From contig JAOTXU010000002.1 of the NCBI GenBank assembly GCA_029862165.1, positions 178,556 through 242,555 on the forward strand: DNA of 64,000 bases, given 5' to 3'. The notes beneath the pieces were generated by a model. It ran no database searches, was not told the DNA's origin, and saw nothing but the letters and a program-made list of their open reading frames with translations. Source of the DNA: Gammaproteobacteria bacterium (GTDB lineage: Bacteria > Pseudomonadota > Gammaproteobacteria > Steroidobacterales > JABDKV01). The position numbers and the translations under genes are program-made. Shown here piece by piece: positions 11,944 through 64,000 of the stretch (position 1 is the first letter of the stretch; the number at the start of each line of letters is the position of its first letter).

Positions 11944-12063
11944 ACCCTCCCCCCGGAGGGGGGACGTACGCGGGGTTTGCCCCCCACCCCAACCCTCCCC
12001 CCGGAGGGGGGAAGTACGCGGGATTTGCCCCCCACCCCAACCCTCCCCCCGGAGGGGGGAGGG
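11944..12063. repeat. 48-bp GC-rich palindromic tandem repeat (about 2.5 copies)
   Basis: The motif starting 'accctccccccggagggggg' recurs at 11944, 11992 and 12040, an exact 48-base period, with the third copy partial. Each copy contains the self-complementary core 'ccctcccccc/ggaggggg' and so can fold into a strong hairpin. It fills the gap between the sulfurylase gene and miaB. The spurious minus-strand ORF over it ('SPLRGEGWGGG' twice) is a repeat artefact. It could act as a terminator, an mRNA-stabilising structure or a mobile REP-like element. Confidence 0.9.
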
Positions 12064-31763: not shown

Positions 31764-33224
31764 ATGGCAGAGAACAACAAGCCAGGCGCGTTAGCGATCG
31801 CACGGGAACGCATACTCGATCCGTCAGGGATCGACGATCAACAGCTCGAAACCGTACTGGGCAGTATCATGGGCCACGCAGTGGACAGTGCCGACCTGTA
31901 TTTTCAGATTAGCCGGCACGAATCCTGGTCGCTTGAAGACAGTATTGTGCGCGACGCCGCGCACAGCATAGAGCAGGGTGTTGGTGTACGCGCGGTGAGC
32001 GGCGAAAAAACCGGTTTTGCCTACTCGGATGAAATTGTATTGCCGGCGCTGACGCTTGCCTCCGAAGCTGCACGCGCCATTGCAAAGCAAGGTTCCCAGG
32101 GCAGTCTACAGGCGTGGCATGCGGCGAGCGGCAGACAGCTTTACGCGCCCGTGGATCCATTGGAATCAGTTGACGATGCGAAAAAGGTCGCTTTGCTCGA
32201 GCGTGTCGATCGCGAAACGCGTGCGCTCGATCCGCGTGTTAGCGAAGTAATGGTGAGCATGGCTGGCGTGCATGACGTTGTGCTCATTGCCGGCAGCGAC
32301 GGCACACTAAATGCCGATATCCGTCCGTTAGTGCGATTCAATGTCTCGGTCATCGTGGAAGATCATGATGGAAAGCGCGAGCAGGGTTACGCTGGCGGCG
32401 GTGGACGCCACGGTTACCAGTACTTTTATCAGGACGATTGCGTCATGGACTATGCCCGCGAAGCGCTGCGGCAGGCACTACTCAACCTTGAGGCGAAGGA
32501 TGCACCGGCGGGGACGATGACGGTTGTGCTGGGCCCCGGTTGGCCGGGTGTCTTGCTGCACGAAGCAATAGGGCATGGTCTTGAAGGCGACTTCAACCGC
32601 AAGGGCACATCCGCTTTTTCCGGCCGTATTGGCGAACGTGTCGCCTCGGAACTGTGCACAGTTGTGGACGACGGTACTTTGCCTGATCGTCGCGGTTCGC
32701 TGACTATCGATGATGAAGGTACGCCGACGACGTGTACGACCCTGATCGAAAATGGTGTGTTGCGCACGTATATGCAGGACAAAATGAATGCACGGCTAAT
32801 GGGGATGGAACCAACGGGTAACGGACGACGTGAATCTTTCGCCCATCTACCTATGCCTCGCATGACCAATACCTACATGTTGCCGGGACCACACGACCCG
32901 AACGAGATTATCGCCTCGGTCAAGAACGGCCTGTATGCTTCGAATTTTGGCGGTGGCCAGGTTGATATCACTTCCGGCAAGTTTGTTTTTTCTGCCAGCG
33001 AGGCCTATCTGATCGAAGATGGAAAACTGACCGCACCGGTCAAAGGGGCGACTCTGATTGGCAATGGTCCCGATGTACTGACGCGAGTGAGCATGGTCGG
33101 TAACGATCTGCAGCTGGATCAGGGCGTCGGTGTTTGCGGCAAGGAGGGGCAAAGTGTTCCGGTGGGTGTCGGCCAACCCACGCTTCGTGTCGATGGCCTG
33201 ACTGTCGGCGGAACCTCAGGCTAG
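31764..33224 (+). CDS. tldD: Metalloprotease TldD
   Basis: A 486-residue protein with the zinc-binding HExxxH motif in '[13 protein letters not shown]' and the family segments 'GFAYSDEI' and '[22 protein letters not shown]' (abridged). TldD forms a heterodimeric protease with PmbA, whose gene lies 8 kb downstream, and degrades unfolded peptides such as microcin precursors or antitoxins. The catalytic residues lie in TldD. A REP array begins right after the stop codon. Confidence 0.96.
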
Positions 33225-33238
33225 CCGCGACCCACTAC

Positions 33239-33466
33239 GTAGGAGCGGCTTCCAGCCGCTCATTTCCACGAGCCGCGATTTCCACGACGATGCCGTAGGA
33301 GCGGCTTCCAGCCGCGATTTCCGCACGCCGCGATTTCCGCGCGCCGCGATTTCCACGACGATGCCGTAGGAGCGGCTTCCAGCCGCGATTTCCGCGCGCC
33401 GCGATTTCCACGCGCCGCGATTTCCACGACGATGCCGTAGGAGCGGCTTCCAGCCGCGATTCGATG
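33239..33466. repeat. REP array: four GTAG-headed hairpins with 16-bp sub-repeats
   Basis: 'gtaggagcggcttccagccg' occurs at 33239, 33295, 33366 and 33437. Each copy has the 5' GTAG tetranucleotide and a perfect 6-bp stem (gcggct/agccgc) with a tcc loop, the REP format recognised by RAYT transposases. Spacing is 56, 71 and 71 bases. The spacers are built of a 16-base unit, 'gccgcgatttccRcgM'. The overlapping minus-strand ORFs in the track are artefacts of the repeat. Confidence 0.92.
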
Positions 33467-33546
33467 GGACAGCGCAAACAAAAATCAACAAACATTGCCT
33501 TATTTTTGCGGCAGCCTCAGGAAGCAGGGGTTGCTAATGTGCCGAG

Positions 33547-34011
33547 ATGGCAGTCGCTCAACCGCACGCGAGAAATCTCCGCAAGGGACGCCACTCACAA
33601 CCGTGCCAGTATTATTTTTTGACCGTGTCGGTCGCTGGCCGAAGGCGGATATTCACGCAGCGAAACCATGCGGTAGTGGTGCTTGACGCCATGCGCTGGC
33701 TGAGCGGTACGGGTCGATTCTTCGTTGATGCAGCTGTCGTCATGCCGGACCATTTGCATATTGCCGGACAACTTGGCGAAAGCACTTTGGCCAAGGTCAT
33801 GCATACGCTCAAGGGCTACACTGCCAAATGCCTGGCAAAAGCCGGAGTTGAAACACCTGTCTGGCAAAAAGGCTATTACGATCACGCGCTTCGTGACGAT
33901 GAGGATTACAGGATCAGGATTCAATATTTGATTGATAATCCGATCCGTACAGGACTGGTTAAGCACGCCCGGGAATACCCATTTGTCATTTTGCCGAGTT
34001 GGTGGGAATAA
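33547..34011 (+). CDS. REP-associated tyrosine transposase (RAYT)
   Basis: A 154-residue Y1/HUH-type protein. The HUH metal-binding motif lies in 'VVMPDHLHIAG', and the C-terminal 'WQKGYYDHALRDDEDY' and 'IQYLIDNPIRTGLV' match RAYTs, the latter carrying the likely catalytic tyrosine. RAYTs nick single-stranded REP hairpins and are domesticated relatives of IS200/IS605 TnpA. Matching REPs lie on both sides (33239-33466 and, inverted, 34052-34074). No stop or frameshift is seen, so it looks intact. Confidence 0.9.
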   Translation: MAVAQPHARNLRKGRHSQPCQYYFLTVSVAGRRRIFTQRNHAVVVLDAMRWLSGTGRFFVDAAVVMPDHLHIAGQLGESTLAKVMHTLKGYTAKCLAKAGVETPVWQKGYYDHALRDDEDYRIRIQYLIDNPIRTGLVKHAREYPFVILPSWWE

Positions 34012-34051
34012 CGTTGCGATGTCGGCAATGGAGCTGCCGCTGACTCTACGG

Positions 34052-34074
34052 ATCGCGGCTGGAAGCCTCTCCTA
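34052..34074 (-). repeat. Single REP copy, inverted relative to the array
   Basis: 'atcgcggctggaagcctctcctac' is the reverse complement of the array REP with one internal difference (a c missing the palindromic match in the loop-side arm). It lies 40 bases past the RAYT stop codon, so the transposase gene is bracketed by REPs in opposite orientation. Confidence 0.85.
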
Positions 34075-34133
34075 CGCATGGTTGTGGGCGGCCGGTTTTG
34101 GCCGATTTCTACCTAGTCGTTGACGCCTATGCT

Positions 34134-37100
34134 TTAAGGCGAACCCATGAAGCTGACAGTCATGGAAACCGGCGTAGGAGCACCATTTACGTACACGTCC
34201 AGGATAATATCGCCAGAGGCGAATCCTTCACCGCTCGCGCGCACCACGTAGCGACCGTCGCCGAAGTCACGTGCCAGGACGGAGTTGCACCCGGCGACCG
34301 GGTCGAGTGTGGTCAGACTGGAAATCGCCGGGTTGGGCATTGTCGTGCCAGCCCCAATACAAACACCCACGAGCTGGGCCGGTTCCAGTAGATTTGTCCG
34401 TCCAACCTGCAGGAAGAACTCGACATCGACCTCTCCGCCCTCATAGAGGTCGACCATGACGTCCGGTCCGACGCCGTCAGGCTGTGCTTGAGCCCCTTGC
34501 AGATAGTGGTAGCCGAGGTCAAGAATTCCGGTATCCGGCGTACCGAGCGGATCCGTGGTTTCACCGTCACTAAAGAGCTGGGCAGCGTCGATGCCGGTAT
34601 AGGCATTGACTGCGGGGCTCGAAGCCTGGTTCAGGTAAAAGCCGGAAACAAATAACGGATCAGCCGCCAGACCAGTCGGGCTGACCGGCCCCCCCTGGAC
34701 CAGGTTGAATTCGGCCAACAAGTTCTCGCCCAGGCCAAAGTCAGCATCTGCATCGGCACTGCCATAGAACAGATCGTCTGTGTAACCCACCTGGCGACTA
34801 TTACCGGACAACTCACCATCGATCTCGATACGTTTGACCCAGGCAGACTGAACGGGCGATGGAGACACATAACCCACGAACTGGTAGTCGCCGCCATTGA
34901 CATCGCCACCGGCAAACTCCCGCAGCAGACCGCCCTGCGGATCAAAGAAGCGGGTGACGGTAAACGCGTTCCAGATGCGTTGCAGGCCGGCGCGGCGCTG
35001 TGGTGTGTCAAACACTATTTCATAGCGCACGCGGCCATCATCGACGCAACCGCCACAGGGTGCGCCGACGATGGTATTGCCATCGCTGCCGGAAAACGCT
35101 GCGGATACCTCAACATGGAACGGGCCGGCTGGGTTGCCGGCGACGTCGCTGATCGAGGCAAAAGTCACGCCAGGAATCTGCGTGGTCAGATTGGTGCCGG
35201 TGGCGACGCTTTCAAAATCGACCAGGGTGTCGCCGGCGCTGATGACCAGCTCCTCAAAAGCGGCGCGGGCATCGGGCCCGCAAACGGCACCAAAGCCTTC
35301 TTCGACAAAAACATTGTCATCAATATCAGTGAAACCAACGCTCGCGTCGTCATTGAAGTAGAAAATATTGCCGGCAAATCTCTTCGGTTGGAAGAAATTG
35401 TCGCAACCGTTAAACCCGACATAACCACCGGCGCCGTCATCGGCCTGGTTATAGGCAATAGTATTCAACTCCATGTCTACTGCCAGCCTGTCGCCGGGCG
35501 ACAACGCATTAATCGCGCCGCCGATCGTCTGGGCGTAGTTGCCAACGAACAAGTTGTCGTCCATCACCGTACCGTTCCCGTTGGAAAAGATATTCACAGC
35601 TGCGCCACTGAAGCCTGAGTTGGACAGAAACGCATTGCCAGTCAAATCAGCGAAATTTCCCGGGGCTTGAACAAAATCAATTGCCCCGCCCAAGTCCGAC
35701 GAATTGTTTGCAAGAACGGTCTCTTCAAGAACCAGACTGCCGAGTACTAGTACACCGCTACCAAATCCCGAGGACATATTGCTGGCGATTAACGAATCAA
35801 GGATATCCACGAAAGAAAATTGATCGATGAAAACGCCGCCGGCAGATTCCGTGCTGAAGTTCTCACGGACCACGACCCGATCCAGAATTACAAAACTGTT
35901 TCCGCGTATGTCGATGCCGCCGGCTTGACCCGTAAAGTTTGATCCGTTGACCACCGCGATATTGCTCACGCTCGCCACAGCATTTTCGAGTACCAGCACC
36001 GTGCCATCGTTGACCGCGTCGAAAACCGTCGTCGGCGGGAATACCGGCAGGTAAATACTCGGACTGACTGAACCGACGAGGTTAAACTCAGGTGCTGCGG
36101 GATTGAGCAGACTCAGTGGTTCATAGGTTCCGGCTGAGTAAAGCACATAGGTCAAATCAGGAAACTGTGCCAGAAAGGCATTGACGGCATTGTTGGTCTG
36201 AATTGCCTCTTCCCAAATGAAGCCGTTGCTCGAATCGTTGCCACCGACGGCGTTGACATGCAACACCATGTCGGGCACATGCGCGTCGGTCAGGAATTCG
36301 AGTTCTATTCCGTCGCCCACGTCATCATTGTCGGTATCGGGATTCAGTGGATCGGTATCACCGCCCGGCGTGACGTTGGCGCTGGACGGGTCGCCGTCGA
36401 TGTTGACCTCTTCAAAATCCGTAGCGCCATCATTATCGCTATCTGGATTGTTTGGATCGGTACCAATGGTTTGCTCAACACTATCCAACAGTCCATCGCC
36501 GTCGGAGTCGGCCGAGACTGAAAGTATGGTCAGACTGACGGTTGCTGTAGCCGCGCCCCCGTTACCGTCGGACGCGATGTAGCTAAAGCTGTCGGACAAG
36601 AACTGACTGCCGTTATGAATGTAGGTGAATATGCCATCGGTGCCGAGGTCTAGCTGACCATTTAACGGCGGTGTATCCAACGCAGCACTAAGAACATCGT
36701 TTTCCGGATCCGTATCGTTTGCCAGTACGCCCGGATCGCTGACCAACGTGCCACCGACAGTTGCCACCGTATAGCTATCGGCTACCGCTACCGGGTCATC
36801 GTTAACCGGATTGATGCTTAAGGTGACGGCACCTATTGCACTACCGTTACCATCACTGACGCTATAGGTGAAGCTGTCTGACGTCGTTTCACCGCCGTCA
36901 TGGGTGTAGCTGAACGAACCGTCCACAGCCAGGCTCAGCTGGCCGTTCGTCGGCTGCATTTCTGCCAACACGGTCAAAGTGTCATTTTCGGCGTCGGTAT
37001 CGTTGTCAAGCACACCGGGCGTCTGCACCGTCAGAGTCGCGCCTTCATCCACGTTGTAGCTGTCGCCTGCAGCAATGGGTGGGTCGTTTAGCGGCAGCAC

Positions 37101-38609
37101 CGTGATGTCCACCAGGGCTGTCGCCGATCCGCCTTGCCCGTCGGATACCGAATAAATAAAACTGTCGCTCAACGTTTCGCTGCCGTCGTGTGTGTAGCTG
37201 AATGACCCGTCATCGGCCAGGTCTAGCTGGCCATTTTGTGGTGGCGTGTCGACGGCAGCCGTCAGTGTGTCGTTTTCCGCGTCGGTGTCATTAACGAGCA
37301 ACCCGGGGGCCTGGATATCGAGGTTTCCGCCTTCAGCCACATCAAAACTGTCGCCTGCCGCTATTGGCGCATCGTTAACCGGCGTGATGCTGATCGAAAC
37401 TGTTGCAAAGGCTGTGCCACCCTGACTGTCGTCAACCGAATAACTGAACGCATCAGAGTTGGTCTCACTACCGTCATGGCTGTATACGAATGATCCATCC
37501 GGATTCAGCGTCAATAGGCCATTTACAGGTCCGGAGTCCAGCGTAACGCTTAGCGGGTTGTTGTCCACGTCGCTGTCGTTATCCAGCACGCCGGGTGCAG
37601 CAACAGTCAGGCTTGCGCCCTCGCTCACGGTGTATGAGTCATCCAGGGCGATCGGCGGATTGTTTGGTACAACAGTCTGCGACAATGTGCTTTCGTCTAC
37701 GTCAACCAGACCGGTACTCATGTAGGCATCAAAATTGTTATTGCGAAAGCGCGTGATTTCTTCATCCAGAACCAAATCCGTTGGTATCGCAACTGGCGCC
37801 TGGTTGATCGTTACCATGACCGGAACGCCGGCCACCAAACCATCGAGACGACCGTCGCTAAAATCCGTAATCACCGCGTCGATAATCGCAATGTTGGGCT
37901 CCGGTGATCCGACTACGACAGAAACGCGGTTTAGCGCATTGGCAAAACCGCCAAGCAGCATCGCGAATTGTCGTTGCGCCAATGCGGCGCCGCTATCGGG
38001 ATTGATTGTGTCTGCCGGCAGGACCGTGGCGATATCGAAACCAAATGCGAGCGTTGCCAGTGCTCTGTTGGCCGTATAAACCGCCTGAAAATTGCTACCC
38101 GCAGCCTCGCGTCGCGCCTTTTCCAGTAACGCATGTCCCGGGATGGAAATTGCGACCTCGCTGGCGCCGTCTGGCAAAATACTTTGCAGACCCTCGCCCG
38201 GTGCGAGTTGAATACGGCGTTTGGCAGCCAGAACCGGTTCCTGGTCGGCTTCATCGATAAACTCGCCCCCGGAGGTTTCCAACAACAACATGCCCGATCC
38301 AACCGGAAGCTGCAGCGTGAACCGGCCCTGGTCGTCAGTAGTCGCAGTGGCAACTGCCGGGCCGTCCTGCATGCCGGTGTCATCAACCGGATAGGCCGCG
38401 ATATCGGCACCGACGACAGCGTTTTTGGTAAATCCGCCCTGCACGATGCGAGTCGCATCAGATAGGGTGGCCAGCGATTCTGGTGTGGAGCCGCCACTGC
38501 CACACGCTGACACCAGGAATGCAAGACCGGCGGCGGCAATCAGACGCACCTGTGCCCAATGGTTGTGTTGGTGGATCATCCAACCACCCGGGTTGATTTT
38601 TCCTTGCAT
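34134..38609 (-). CDS. Very large surface lipoprotein with Ig-like repeats, TSP3 calcium repeats and a beta-helix
   Basis: About 1,490 residues. A signal peptide ends in lipobox 'LVSAC', followed by a Gly/Ser-rich linker. Next come a carboxypeptidase-regulatory-like domain, four Ig/cadherin-like repeats of about 95 residues (numbered 321-701 from the track start), and thrombospondin-type-3 calcium repeats ('DSDGDGLLDSVEQTIGTDP'). The C-terminal half looks like a right-handed beta-helix plus an anchor-type beta domain. It is likely an outer-membrane adhesin or biofilm protein. Start is uncertain: GTG 38624, ATG 38609 and ATG 38579 are in frame, and all keep the lipobox. Confidence 0.8.
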   Translation of the reverse strand: MQGKINPGGWMIHQHNHWAQVRLIAAAGLAFLVSACGSGGSTPESLATLSDATRIVQGGFTKNAVVGADIAAYPVDDTGMQDGPAVATATTDDQGRFTLQLPVGSGMLLLETSGGEFIDEADQEPVLAAKRRIQLAPGEGLQSILPDGASEVAISIPGHALLEKARREAAGSNFQAVYTANRALATLAFGFDIATVLPADTINPDSGAALAQRQFAMLLGGFANALNRVSVVVGSPEPNIAIIDAVITDFSDGRLDGLVAGVPVMVTINQAPVAIPTDLVLDEEITRFRNNNFDAYMSTGLVDVDESTLSQTVVPNNPPIALDDSYTVSEGASLTVAAPGVLDNDSDVDNNPLSVTLDSGPVNGLLTLNPDGSFVYSHDGSETNSDAFSYSVDDSQGGTAFATVSISITPVNDAPIAAGDSFDVAEGGNLDIQAPGLLVNDTDAENDTLTAAVDTPPQNGQLDLADDGSFSYTHDGSETLSDSFIYSVSDGQGGSATALVDITVLPLNDPPIAAGDSYNVDEGATLTVQTPGVLDNDTDAENDTLTVLAEMQPTNGQLSLAVDGSFSYTHDGGETTSDSFTYSVSDGNGSAIGAVTLSINPVNDDPVAVADSYTVATVGGTLVSDPGVLANDTDPENDVLSAALDTPPLNGQLDLGTDGIFTYIHNGSQFLSDSFSYIASDGNGGAATATVSLTILSVSADSDGDGLLDSVEQTIGTDPNNPDSDNDGATDFEEVNIDGDPSSANVTPGGDTDPLNPDTDNDDVGDGIELEFLTDAHVPDMVLHVNAVGGNDSSNGFIWEEAIQTNNAVNAFLAQFPDLTYVLYSAGTYEPLSLLNPAAPEFNLVGSVSPSIYLPVFPPTTVFDAVNDGTVLVLENAVASVSNIAVVNGSNFTGQAGGIDIRGNSFVILDRVVVRENFSTESAGGVFIDQFSFVDILDSLIASNMSSGFGSGVLVLGSLVLEETVLANNSSDLGGAIDFVQAPGNFADLTGNAFLSNSGFSGAAVNIFSNGNGTVMDDNLFVGNYAQTIGGAINALSPGDRLAVDMELNTIAYNQADDGAGGYVGFNGCDNFFQPKRFAGNIFYFNDDASVGFTDIDDNVFVEEGFGAVCGPDARAAFEELVISAGDTLVDFESVATGTNLTTQIPGVTFASISDVAGNPAGPFHVEVSAAFSGSDGNTIVGAPCGGCVDDGRVRYEIVFDTPQRRAGLQRIWNAFTVTRFFDPQGGLLREFAGGDVNGGDYQFVGYVSPSPVQSAWVKRIEIDGELSGNSRQVGYTDDLFYGSADADADFGLGENLLAEFNLVQGGPVSPTGLAADPLFVSGFYLNQASSPAVNAYTGIDAAQLFSDGETTDPLGTPDTGILDLGYHYLQGAQAQPDGVGPDVMVDLYEGGEVDVEFFLQVGRTNLLEPAQLVGVCIGAGTTMPNPAISSLTTLDPVAGCNSVLARDFGDGRYVVRASGEGFASGDIILDVYVNGAPTPVSMTVSFMGSP
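36522..37664 (-). repeat. Four tandem repeats of about 285 bp encoding Ig/cadherin-like domains
   Basis: Within the large lipoprotein gene, four consecutive units share the pattern 'PIAAGDSY.V.EG..L.V..PGVL.NDTD.END.L' and 'SFSYTHDGSET.SDSF.YSVSDG'. Units two and three are the most alike, which suggests recent duplication. The number of units may vary between strains through recombination. Confidence 0.85.
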
Positions 38610-38843
38610 CTGCCTGCCGGCCACTATGGTCGCCCCAGCTAAAGCCTAAGTTTTTGTTCTTCCCCCAAAGTCTAGTACAGGCGCACAATGATTGTTGCCT
38701 TTTTAACTGCAAATCAAAAGCATAGGCAGCCGCGGCGACATATTTCCCGCGGGGCCGCTTTCACAGATCGCGAAAGTGGCAGGCCGCAGCGATAACTGCA
38801 CCGGCGCCTGGCGGTGGGACTACTTTGCCGGTCTGCGGTTCTG

Positions 38844-46064: not shown

Positions 46065-46210
46065 CTTGGTGGTATTCACGCGGCGCAGAATATCACGCTG
46101 TCGCACGCTGAATGTGACGGCGTTCCACAAAACGCGCCACCCGATGGGCCGGAAACGCCAGTGTGTTCCAGTAGCAAGCCTCAACAAAGGAGCCGCGGCC
46201 GATTCTACGA

Positions 46211-46233
46211 ATCGCGGCTGGAAGCCACTCCTA
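46211..46233 (-). repeat. Dispersed REP copy
   Basis: 'atcgcggctggaagccactcctac' is the reverse complement of the REP unit found at 33.2-33.5 kb, with one loop-side change. It lies between the OmpA-like gene and the fusion gene, 12 kb from the array, showing that the element is dispersed in this genome. Confidence 0.85.
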
Positions 46234-46338
46234 CTGGATGGTTGTGGGCGACTGGTTGTGACCGATAACCGGTGACTGCCGTTTTCTTCTCCACCTGCGT
46301 ACTTTCGATTGGGTGTTTGTGCTTACTGTCCGCCAAAC

Positions 46339-61013: not shown

Positions 61014-61027
61014 AAACAAGACAGGGT

Positions 61028-61080
61028 CAAGTCTACGCATTACGCATTATTCAGCGAATAATGCGTAATGCGTAGACTTG
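61028..61080. repeat. Perfect 25-bp-stem inverted repeat with 3-base loop
   Basis: 'caagtctacgcattacgcat' begins a 25-base arm that is exactly repeated in reverse complement after the loop 'agc'. It sits 14 bases after the tRNA-Gln CCA and 18 bases from the transposase stop codon. It has no T-tract, so it is not a classical terminator. It looks like a REP/MITE-type palindrome that may have been the target of the IS110 insertion. Confidence 0.95.
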
Positions 61081-61098
61081 AACATCCCGCTGATATTT

Positions 61099-63731: not shown

Positions 63732-63779
63732 CGTCCACAGGGTCAAAGACCCCAGGATAGACTCAACGCCTAAGCGCGA

Positions 63780-64000
63780 CTAGCGCTTCTTCGTCCGGCG
63801 TTTCTTCGTCTTACGTTTCTTCGTCTTACGTTTCTTCGTCTTACGTTTCTTCGTCTTACGTTTCTTCGTCTTACGTTTCTTCGTCTTACGTTTCTTCGTC
63901 TTACGTTTCTTCGTCTTACGTTTCTTCGTCTTACGTTTCTTCGTCTTACGTTTCTTCGTCTTACGTTTCTTCGTCTTACGTTTCTTCGTCTTACGTTTCT
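63780..64000 (-). CDS. C-terminus of a lysine/arginine-rich KTKKR-repeat protein (5' end beyond window)
   Basis: Not in the ORF track because its start lies outside the window. Read on the minus strand, the 15-base repeat encodes KTKKR over and over (about 13 copies visible), ending 'RKTKKRRTKKR' before a TAG at 63780. Such strongly basic, low-complexity tails occur in histone H1-like and AlgP-like nucleoid proteins of gammaproteobacteria, where they bind DNA or RNA. The N-terminal domain is not visible, so no family can be named. Confidence 0.75.
   Translation of the reverse strand, partial: KRKTKKRKTKKRKTKKRKTKKRKTKKRKTKKRKTKKRKTKKRKTKKRKTKKRKTKKRKTKKRKTKKRRTKKR
63801..64000. repeat. 15-bp perfect tandem repeat (at least 13 copies)
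   Basis: 'tttcttcgtcttacg' repeats without a visible mismatch from 63801 to the window end. The period is a multiple of three, so copy number can change without breaking the reading frame of the KTKKR protein. It continues beyond the window. Confidence 0.97.

Follow-up and report, generated by a model that had tools for sequence, protein, structure and literature searches.

Between tldD and a convergent gene for a cadherin-like/Big_9 protein, both of which lie outside the element, the window (the whole 64-kb stretch of DNA that was analysed) carries a single gene for a REP-associated tyrosine transposase (RAYT) with GTAG-headed REPs inverted about it, four in direct orientation upstream and one in inverted orientation downstream (Table 1). 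The REP hairpin consists of a 6-bp stem and a 3-nt loop. The four upstream copies (33239-33457) are arranged as a direct tandem, head to tail, with start-to-start spacings of 56, 71, and 71, and they precede an intact HUH transposase frame, just as the first-pass annotation had described. The inverted copy reported just downstream is also there, but it differs from GTAGGAGCGGCTTCCAGCCGC by one change (GTAGGAGaGG), which turns a stem C-G pair into A.G and weakens the hairpin to −3.0 as compared to −7.3 kcal/mol. A further inverted copy, reported 12 kb away, likewise has one change (GTAGGAGtGG); it starts at 46214 rather than 46211 and is part of an 82-bp repeat. In total, REPs of the GTAGGAGCGGCTTCCAGCCGC type have six matches in the window and none in 100 dinucleotide shuffles of it, even when up to three mismatches are allowed.

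Table 1. Positions in the window of the RAYT gene, its REPs, the 82-bp repeat, and the neighbouring genes.
Feature	Position	Strand	Evidence or remark
tldD, upstream neighbour, outside the element	31764..33224	+	NF008006, E 1.4e-221
REP 1, GTAGGAGCGGCTTCCAGCCGC	33239..33259	+	exact match; 14 nt past tldD stop codon
Three 71-bp direct tandem units, one REP per unit	33262..33474	+	repeat search
REP 2	33295..33315	+	exact match to GTAGGAGCGGCTTCCAGCCGC
REP 3	33366..33386	+	exact match to GTAGGAGCGGCTTCCAGCCGC
REP 4, closest to RAYT	33437..33457	+	exact match to GTAGGAGCGGCTTCCAGCCGC
RAYT (TnpA_REP), 154 aa, Y1 HUH transposase	33547..34011	+	NF047646, PF01797, 4er8, AlphaFold/Foldseek
82-bp repeat copy 1, includes downstream REP	34026..34106	-	local alignment; BLAST E 2.2e-18
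Downstream inverted REP, GTAGGAGaGGCTTCCAGCCGC, one stem pair broken	34055..34075	-	
Cadherin-like/Big_9 protein gene, convergent downstream neighbour, outside the element	34134..38624	-	Pfam
82-bp repeat copy 2, in intergenic gap; REP core 46214-46234	46185..46266	-	

The RAYT reading frame is free of internal stops. Its product matches the NCBIfam model for REP-associated tyrosine transposases (NF047646) with 124.5 bits (E 3e-36; cut-off 80) and also PF01797, whereas the IS200 transposase model gives 23.3 bits, which is below its cut-off of 55. The sole relative by sequence in the PDB is 4er8 (phmmer 3.5e-11), the RAYT-REP complex of Escherichia coli TnpA_REP, and the AlphaFold model (pLDDT 88.7) has 4er8_A as its best Foldseek hit, followed by IS200/IS605 transposases. 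H69-L-H71 and Y127 fall on the catalytic residues of 4er8 in the alignment and are invariant across 17 homologous sequences. After the tyrosine there is the motif N131-P-I-R-T-G136, whose third residue is isoleucine, and the protein ends nine residues past the conserved YP, without the C-terminal extension of about 20 residues. Family model, predicted fold, and catalytic residues agree that the 154-aa protein is a RAYT. The genome from which the window comes (G000) has one copy of the RAYT gene; no other match to PF01797 or NF047646 was found in it.

The REP is not confined to the window. Pattern searches of the genome (3.3 Mb) find it in 22 places at two mismatches or fewer, eight of them exact, and the reversed-pattern control finds none; with several stem letters left free there are 34 places as compared to 3 for the control. 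For a REP family this copy number is low. When 26 REP sites are aligned, the information falls to background level outside C-GTAG...GCCGC-GAT, which indicates that units of roughly 25 nt were inserted separately; judged from these alignments, the copies are not pieces of longer duplications, save the two of the 82-bp repeat. The loop is TCC or TCT at all 26 sites and the loop-closing pair is T-A in 13, A-T in nine, G-C in one, and unpaired in three, figures that are somewhat inflated because the search pattern favours the conserved letters, and the swaps of the closing pair indicate that the hairpin is preserved even though its sequence varies. Nearly all copies are intergenic in a crude reading by longest open reading frames, lying in gaps between co-directional or convergent genes and in some between divergent ones. 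Three inverted pairs have an identical 16-nt gap between their cores, and most copies are singlets.

Some of the dispersed REPs have a second repeat nearby: 7 of 24 sites (L010, L011, L018, L019, L021, L077, L084) lie within 200 bp of the G-rich repeat GGGAGGGTTAGGGTGGGG; about 58 kb of flanking DNA farther out contains it twice. Their shared intergenic location may explain this proximity. A relative of GGGAGGGTTAGGGTGGGG is present in the window as two tandem 48-bp units of ACCCTCCCCCCGGAGGGGGG... (11944-12039).

That the REP has spread in this genome, as had been proposed, is supported by these dispersed copies and by one site for which an occupied and an empty state can be compared. At C16:183018 (L006) the 3′ end of argG is occupied by a REP, which separates it from a dapE-like gene; the argG frame runs through the REP (...GDDSVGAASSRDRR) and gains a tail that is partly repeat-encoded. 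At the argG/dapE junction of three relatives (G002; G003 from the same genus; G004 from another genus of the same family) there is no REP, and the genes abut or overlap. Since even the relative from the other genus is free of it, the simplest reading of these sequences is a lineage-specific gain of the REP at argG. The upstream flank of the argG REP (CGACGATtCC) resembles that of the units in the RAYT array (CGACGATgCC), a weak hint that the array may have been the source.

The 46-kb copy is more than a simple REP. The two copies of the 82-bp repeat are 84% identical over 82 bp and include, next to the GTAG, about 30 bp absent from the other REPs; the alignment indicates common ancestry of the 46-kb copy with the downstream flank of the RAYT gene. 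This GTAG-side module has three occurrences in six genomes, two in G000 and one in G003 (C18). An abundant larger mobile family built on the 82-bp repeat was considered and rejected, there being only two full copies in G000. Two other repeats of the window are an inverted repeat at 61027-61081 (TCAAGTCTACGCATTACGCATTATTC), whose 26-nt arms match perfectly across a 3-nt gap, and a tandem array of about 255 bp with a 15-bp unit at 63732-63986.

That RAYT and REP are a cognate pair, as the first-pass annotation held, is supported by a genome of the same genus, G003. On its contig C43 there is a RAYT 67% identical to that of the window, at a locus other than tldD, and the same GTAG REP lies on both sides of it, with two direct copies upstream and six inverted ones downstream (of these six, two differ by one change in the loop). 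On C12 there is a 59% identical paralogue, and this one is accompanied by GTGG REPs with the stems CGGCA..TGCCG and CGCCT..AGGCG. A third sequence of the same genome, on C58 (L111 5801-6640), is a RAYT fragment without the N-terminal half, which directly follows a partial GTGG REP, is flanked by the most abundant REP type of that genome, and is followed by a GCCGCTCCCACAGGTC array. Other Y1-like genes of G003 (C63, and C64 at 4583) have longer frames, and no such REPs were found within the 8-9 kb read around them.

The recurrence of the pair at an unrelated locus bears on two other explanations. One is that the hairpins are ordinary terminators, or structures that stabilise mRNA, which were amplified as a satellite and are beside the RAYT gene by chance. 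The hairpins do follow directly on the tldD stop codon and the upstream copies are tandem, but promoter and terminator scans of the RAYT locus found neither, the same REP recurs beside the related RAYT of G003, and the conserved GTAG head and loop are needless for a terminator. We regard this explanation as very improbable. The other is that the whole REPtron moves like an IS200/IS605 insertion sequence. In its favour, the 67% identical RAYT is located elsewhere in G003, other genes follow tldD in G003 and G004 (in G002 the contig stops soon after tldD), and the 82-bp repeat that includes the downstream REP has its second copy 12 kb away. Nevertheless, there is a single gene copy in G000, the protein scores far below the cut-off of the IS200 model, the two RAYT copies of G003 are widely divergent, and published RAYTs are without evidence of gene mobility (PMC8266576), which together make mobility of the whole REPtron improbable.

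It should also be considered that REPs occur where this type of RAYT does not appear to. Several genomes of the same order, such as G010, G227, G245, and G251, have about 10-20 near-identical REPs, and a RAYT of the clade was not found in them, although the contigs of metagenome-assembled genomes (MAGs) may hide genes; their listed RAYT matches are weaker and come from longer reading frames. For the order as a whole, RAYTs were assigned to the clade from the best loci only. Near-identical REPs without a RAYT of the clade imply that the REP can persist after this RAYT is lost or occur without it, and it need not depend on this RAYT gene today. One may therefore ask whether the REPs of G000 are leftovers of an earlier spread, driven by this RAYT or a relative of it, with the pair now inactive. 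The copies are indeed few, mostly single and mutated, and the downstream REP is damaged. Against this, the RAYT frame is intact with its catalytic residues, eight REP copies are exact, and the argG insertion is unique to this species among the four compared. A relict population is rather unlikely in our view, but it is the likeliest of the three alternatives.

The locus is thus very probably a REPtron, composed of a single-copy, domesticated RAYT of the group 3 type and its cognate REPs. In the proposed mechanism, a REP strand would become the substrate at a stage when it is single-stranded, for example in the lagging-strand template. The RAYT would recognise the GTAG head together with the hairpin, Y127 would cut beside the hairpin via a 5′ phosphotyrosine, and the REP DNA would be joined at a new, mostly intergenic site. 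For group 3 TnpA_REP it has been described that the protein binds the single strand in its folded form, recognises positions of the loop, and cuts with a tyrosine, and that the GTAG head guides it to a CT cut site (Corneloup 2021, PMC8266576). It is from membership in this family that we infer a similar cutting mechanism for the RAYT of the window. A constant CT beside the dispersed REPs was not seen in the listed flanks. It was most likely recombination or slippage among REP copies, not transposition, that enlarged the direct 71-bp array upstream.

In anatomy and evolution the locus agrees with published RAYT/REP systems. The group 3 REPtrons of Stenotrophomonas maltophilia (Sm) and Marinomonas (Mb) have the same short perfect palindrome with a loop of 3-4 nt, the GTAG head, HUH and tyrosine without a long C-terminal extension, inverted REPs, and a single gene copy, but their loops are GCT or TTTA rather than TCC/TCT (PMC8266576), and the 5-residue insertion before the last tryptophan and the direct tandem upstream array set the present locus apart from them. 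With the RAYTs and REPs of Pseudomonas and Xanthomonas (Nunvar 2010, PMC2817692) it shares the GA between the GT(A/G)G head and the palindrome, the inverted flanking REPs, the many dispersed copies, and a motif of the NP(L/V)(R/K)xG type, here NPIRTG; the stem sequence is different, and 22 copies (8 exact) are at the low end of the table in that study. The three inverted pairs of G000 with their 16-nt gap are like REPINs (Bertels and Rainey 2011, PMC3116915), although most copies are singlets and the RAYT array is direct rather than made of inverted pairs. Published examples also include REPs in tandem arrays and in clusters next to RAYTs (PMC3116915, PMC3733652). E. coli TnpA_REP (4ER8), which belongs to group 2, has the same fold and the same HUH and tyrosine positions, but its longer, bulged REP and its C-terminal tail are both absent here. 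The TnpA of IS200/IS605 also has the same fold and presumably a similar chemistry, whereas the RAYT of the window is below the IS200 model cut-off and single copy. The arrangement itself is therefore already well described, and what is new is its occurrence in an uncharacterised lineage; with the low copy number, the direction of change at individual insertions can be read by comparison with relatives.

What the RAYT reads in the REP can be approached by comparison. In a tree of 33 RAYTs, those designated G000, G003a, G003b, G225, and G236 fall outside a well-supported group of the other compact RAYTs, the relations among the five not being settled by this tree. All five have the 5-residue insertion before the last tryptophan. 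In the few rows compared, all five occur with TCY-loop REPs and most other RAYTs with different loops. It is conceivable, and we offer it tentatively, that this one RAYT clade reads mainly the TCY loop and accepts a stem of any sequence as long as it pairs, so that the single RAYT of G000 serves two REP stem types, CGGCT..AGCCG and CGGCA..TGCCG, and that the head change from GTAG to GTGG in G003 retargets the cut. If true, this would carry the idea of loop recognition and of a guide (Corneloup 2021) over to natural populations of a single genus. G000 and G003, with GTAG and GTGG heads, different stems, and the G003 RAYTs 59-67% identical to that of the window, form a compact set for tests of REP reading.

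The TCY loop is not exclusive to the five RAYTs, since a RAYT outside them, from a Poribacteria MAG, has a TCT loop as well. This RAYT (L049 3001-3450) is 45% identical to that of the window and is flanked by GTAGGCGCGGCATCTTGCCGCGC, and this sequence includes the same hairpin as the second stem type among the G000 REPs; either transfer or contamination of the MAG would account for it.
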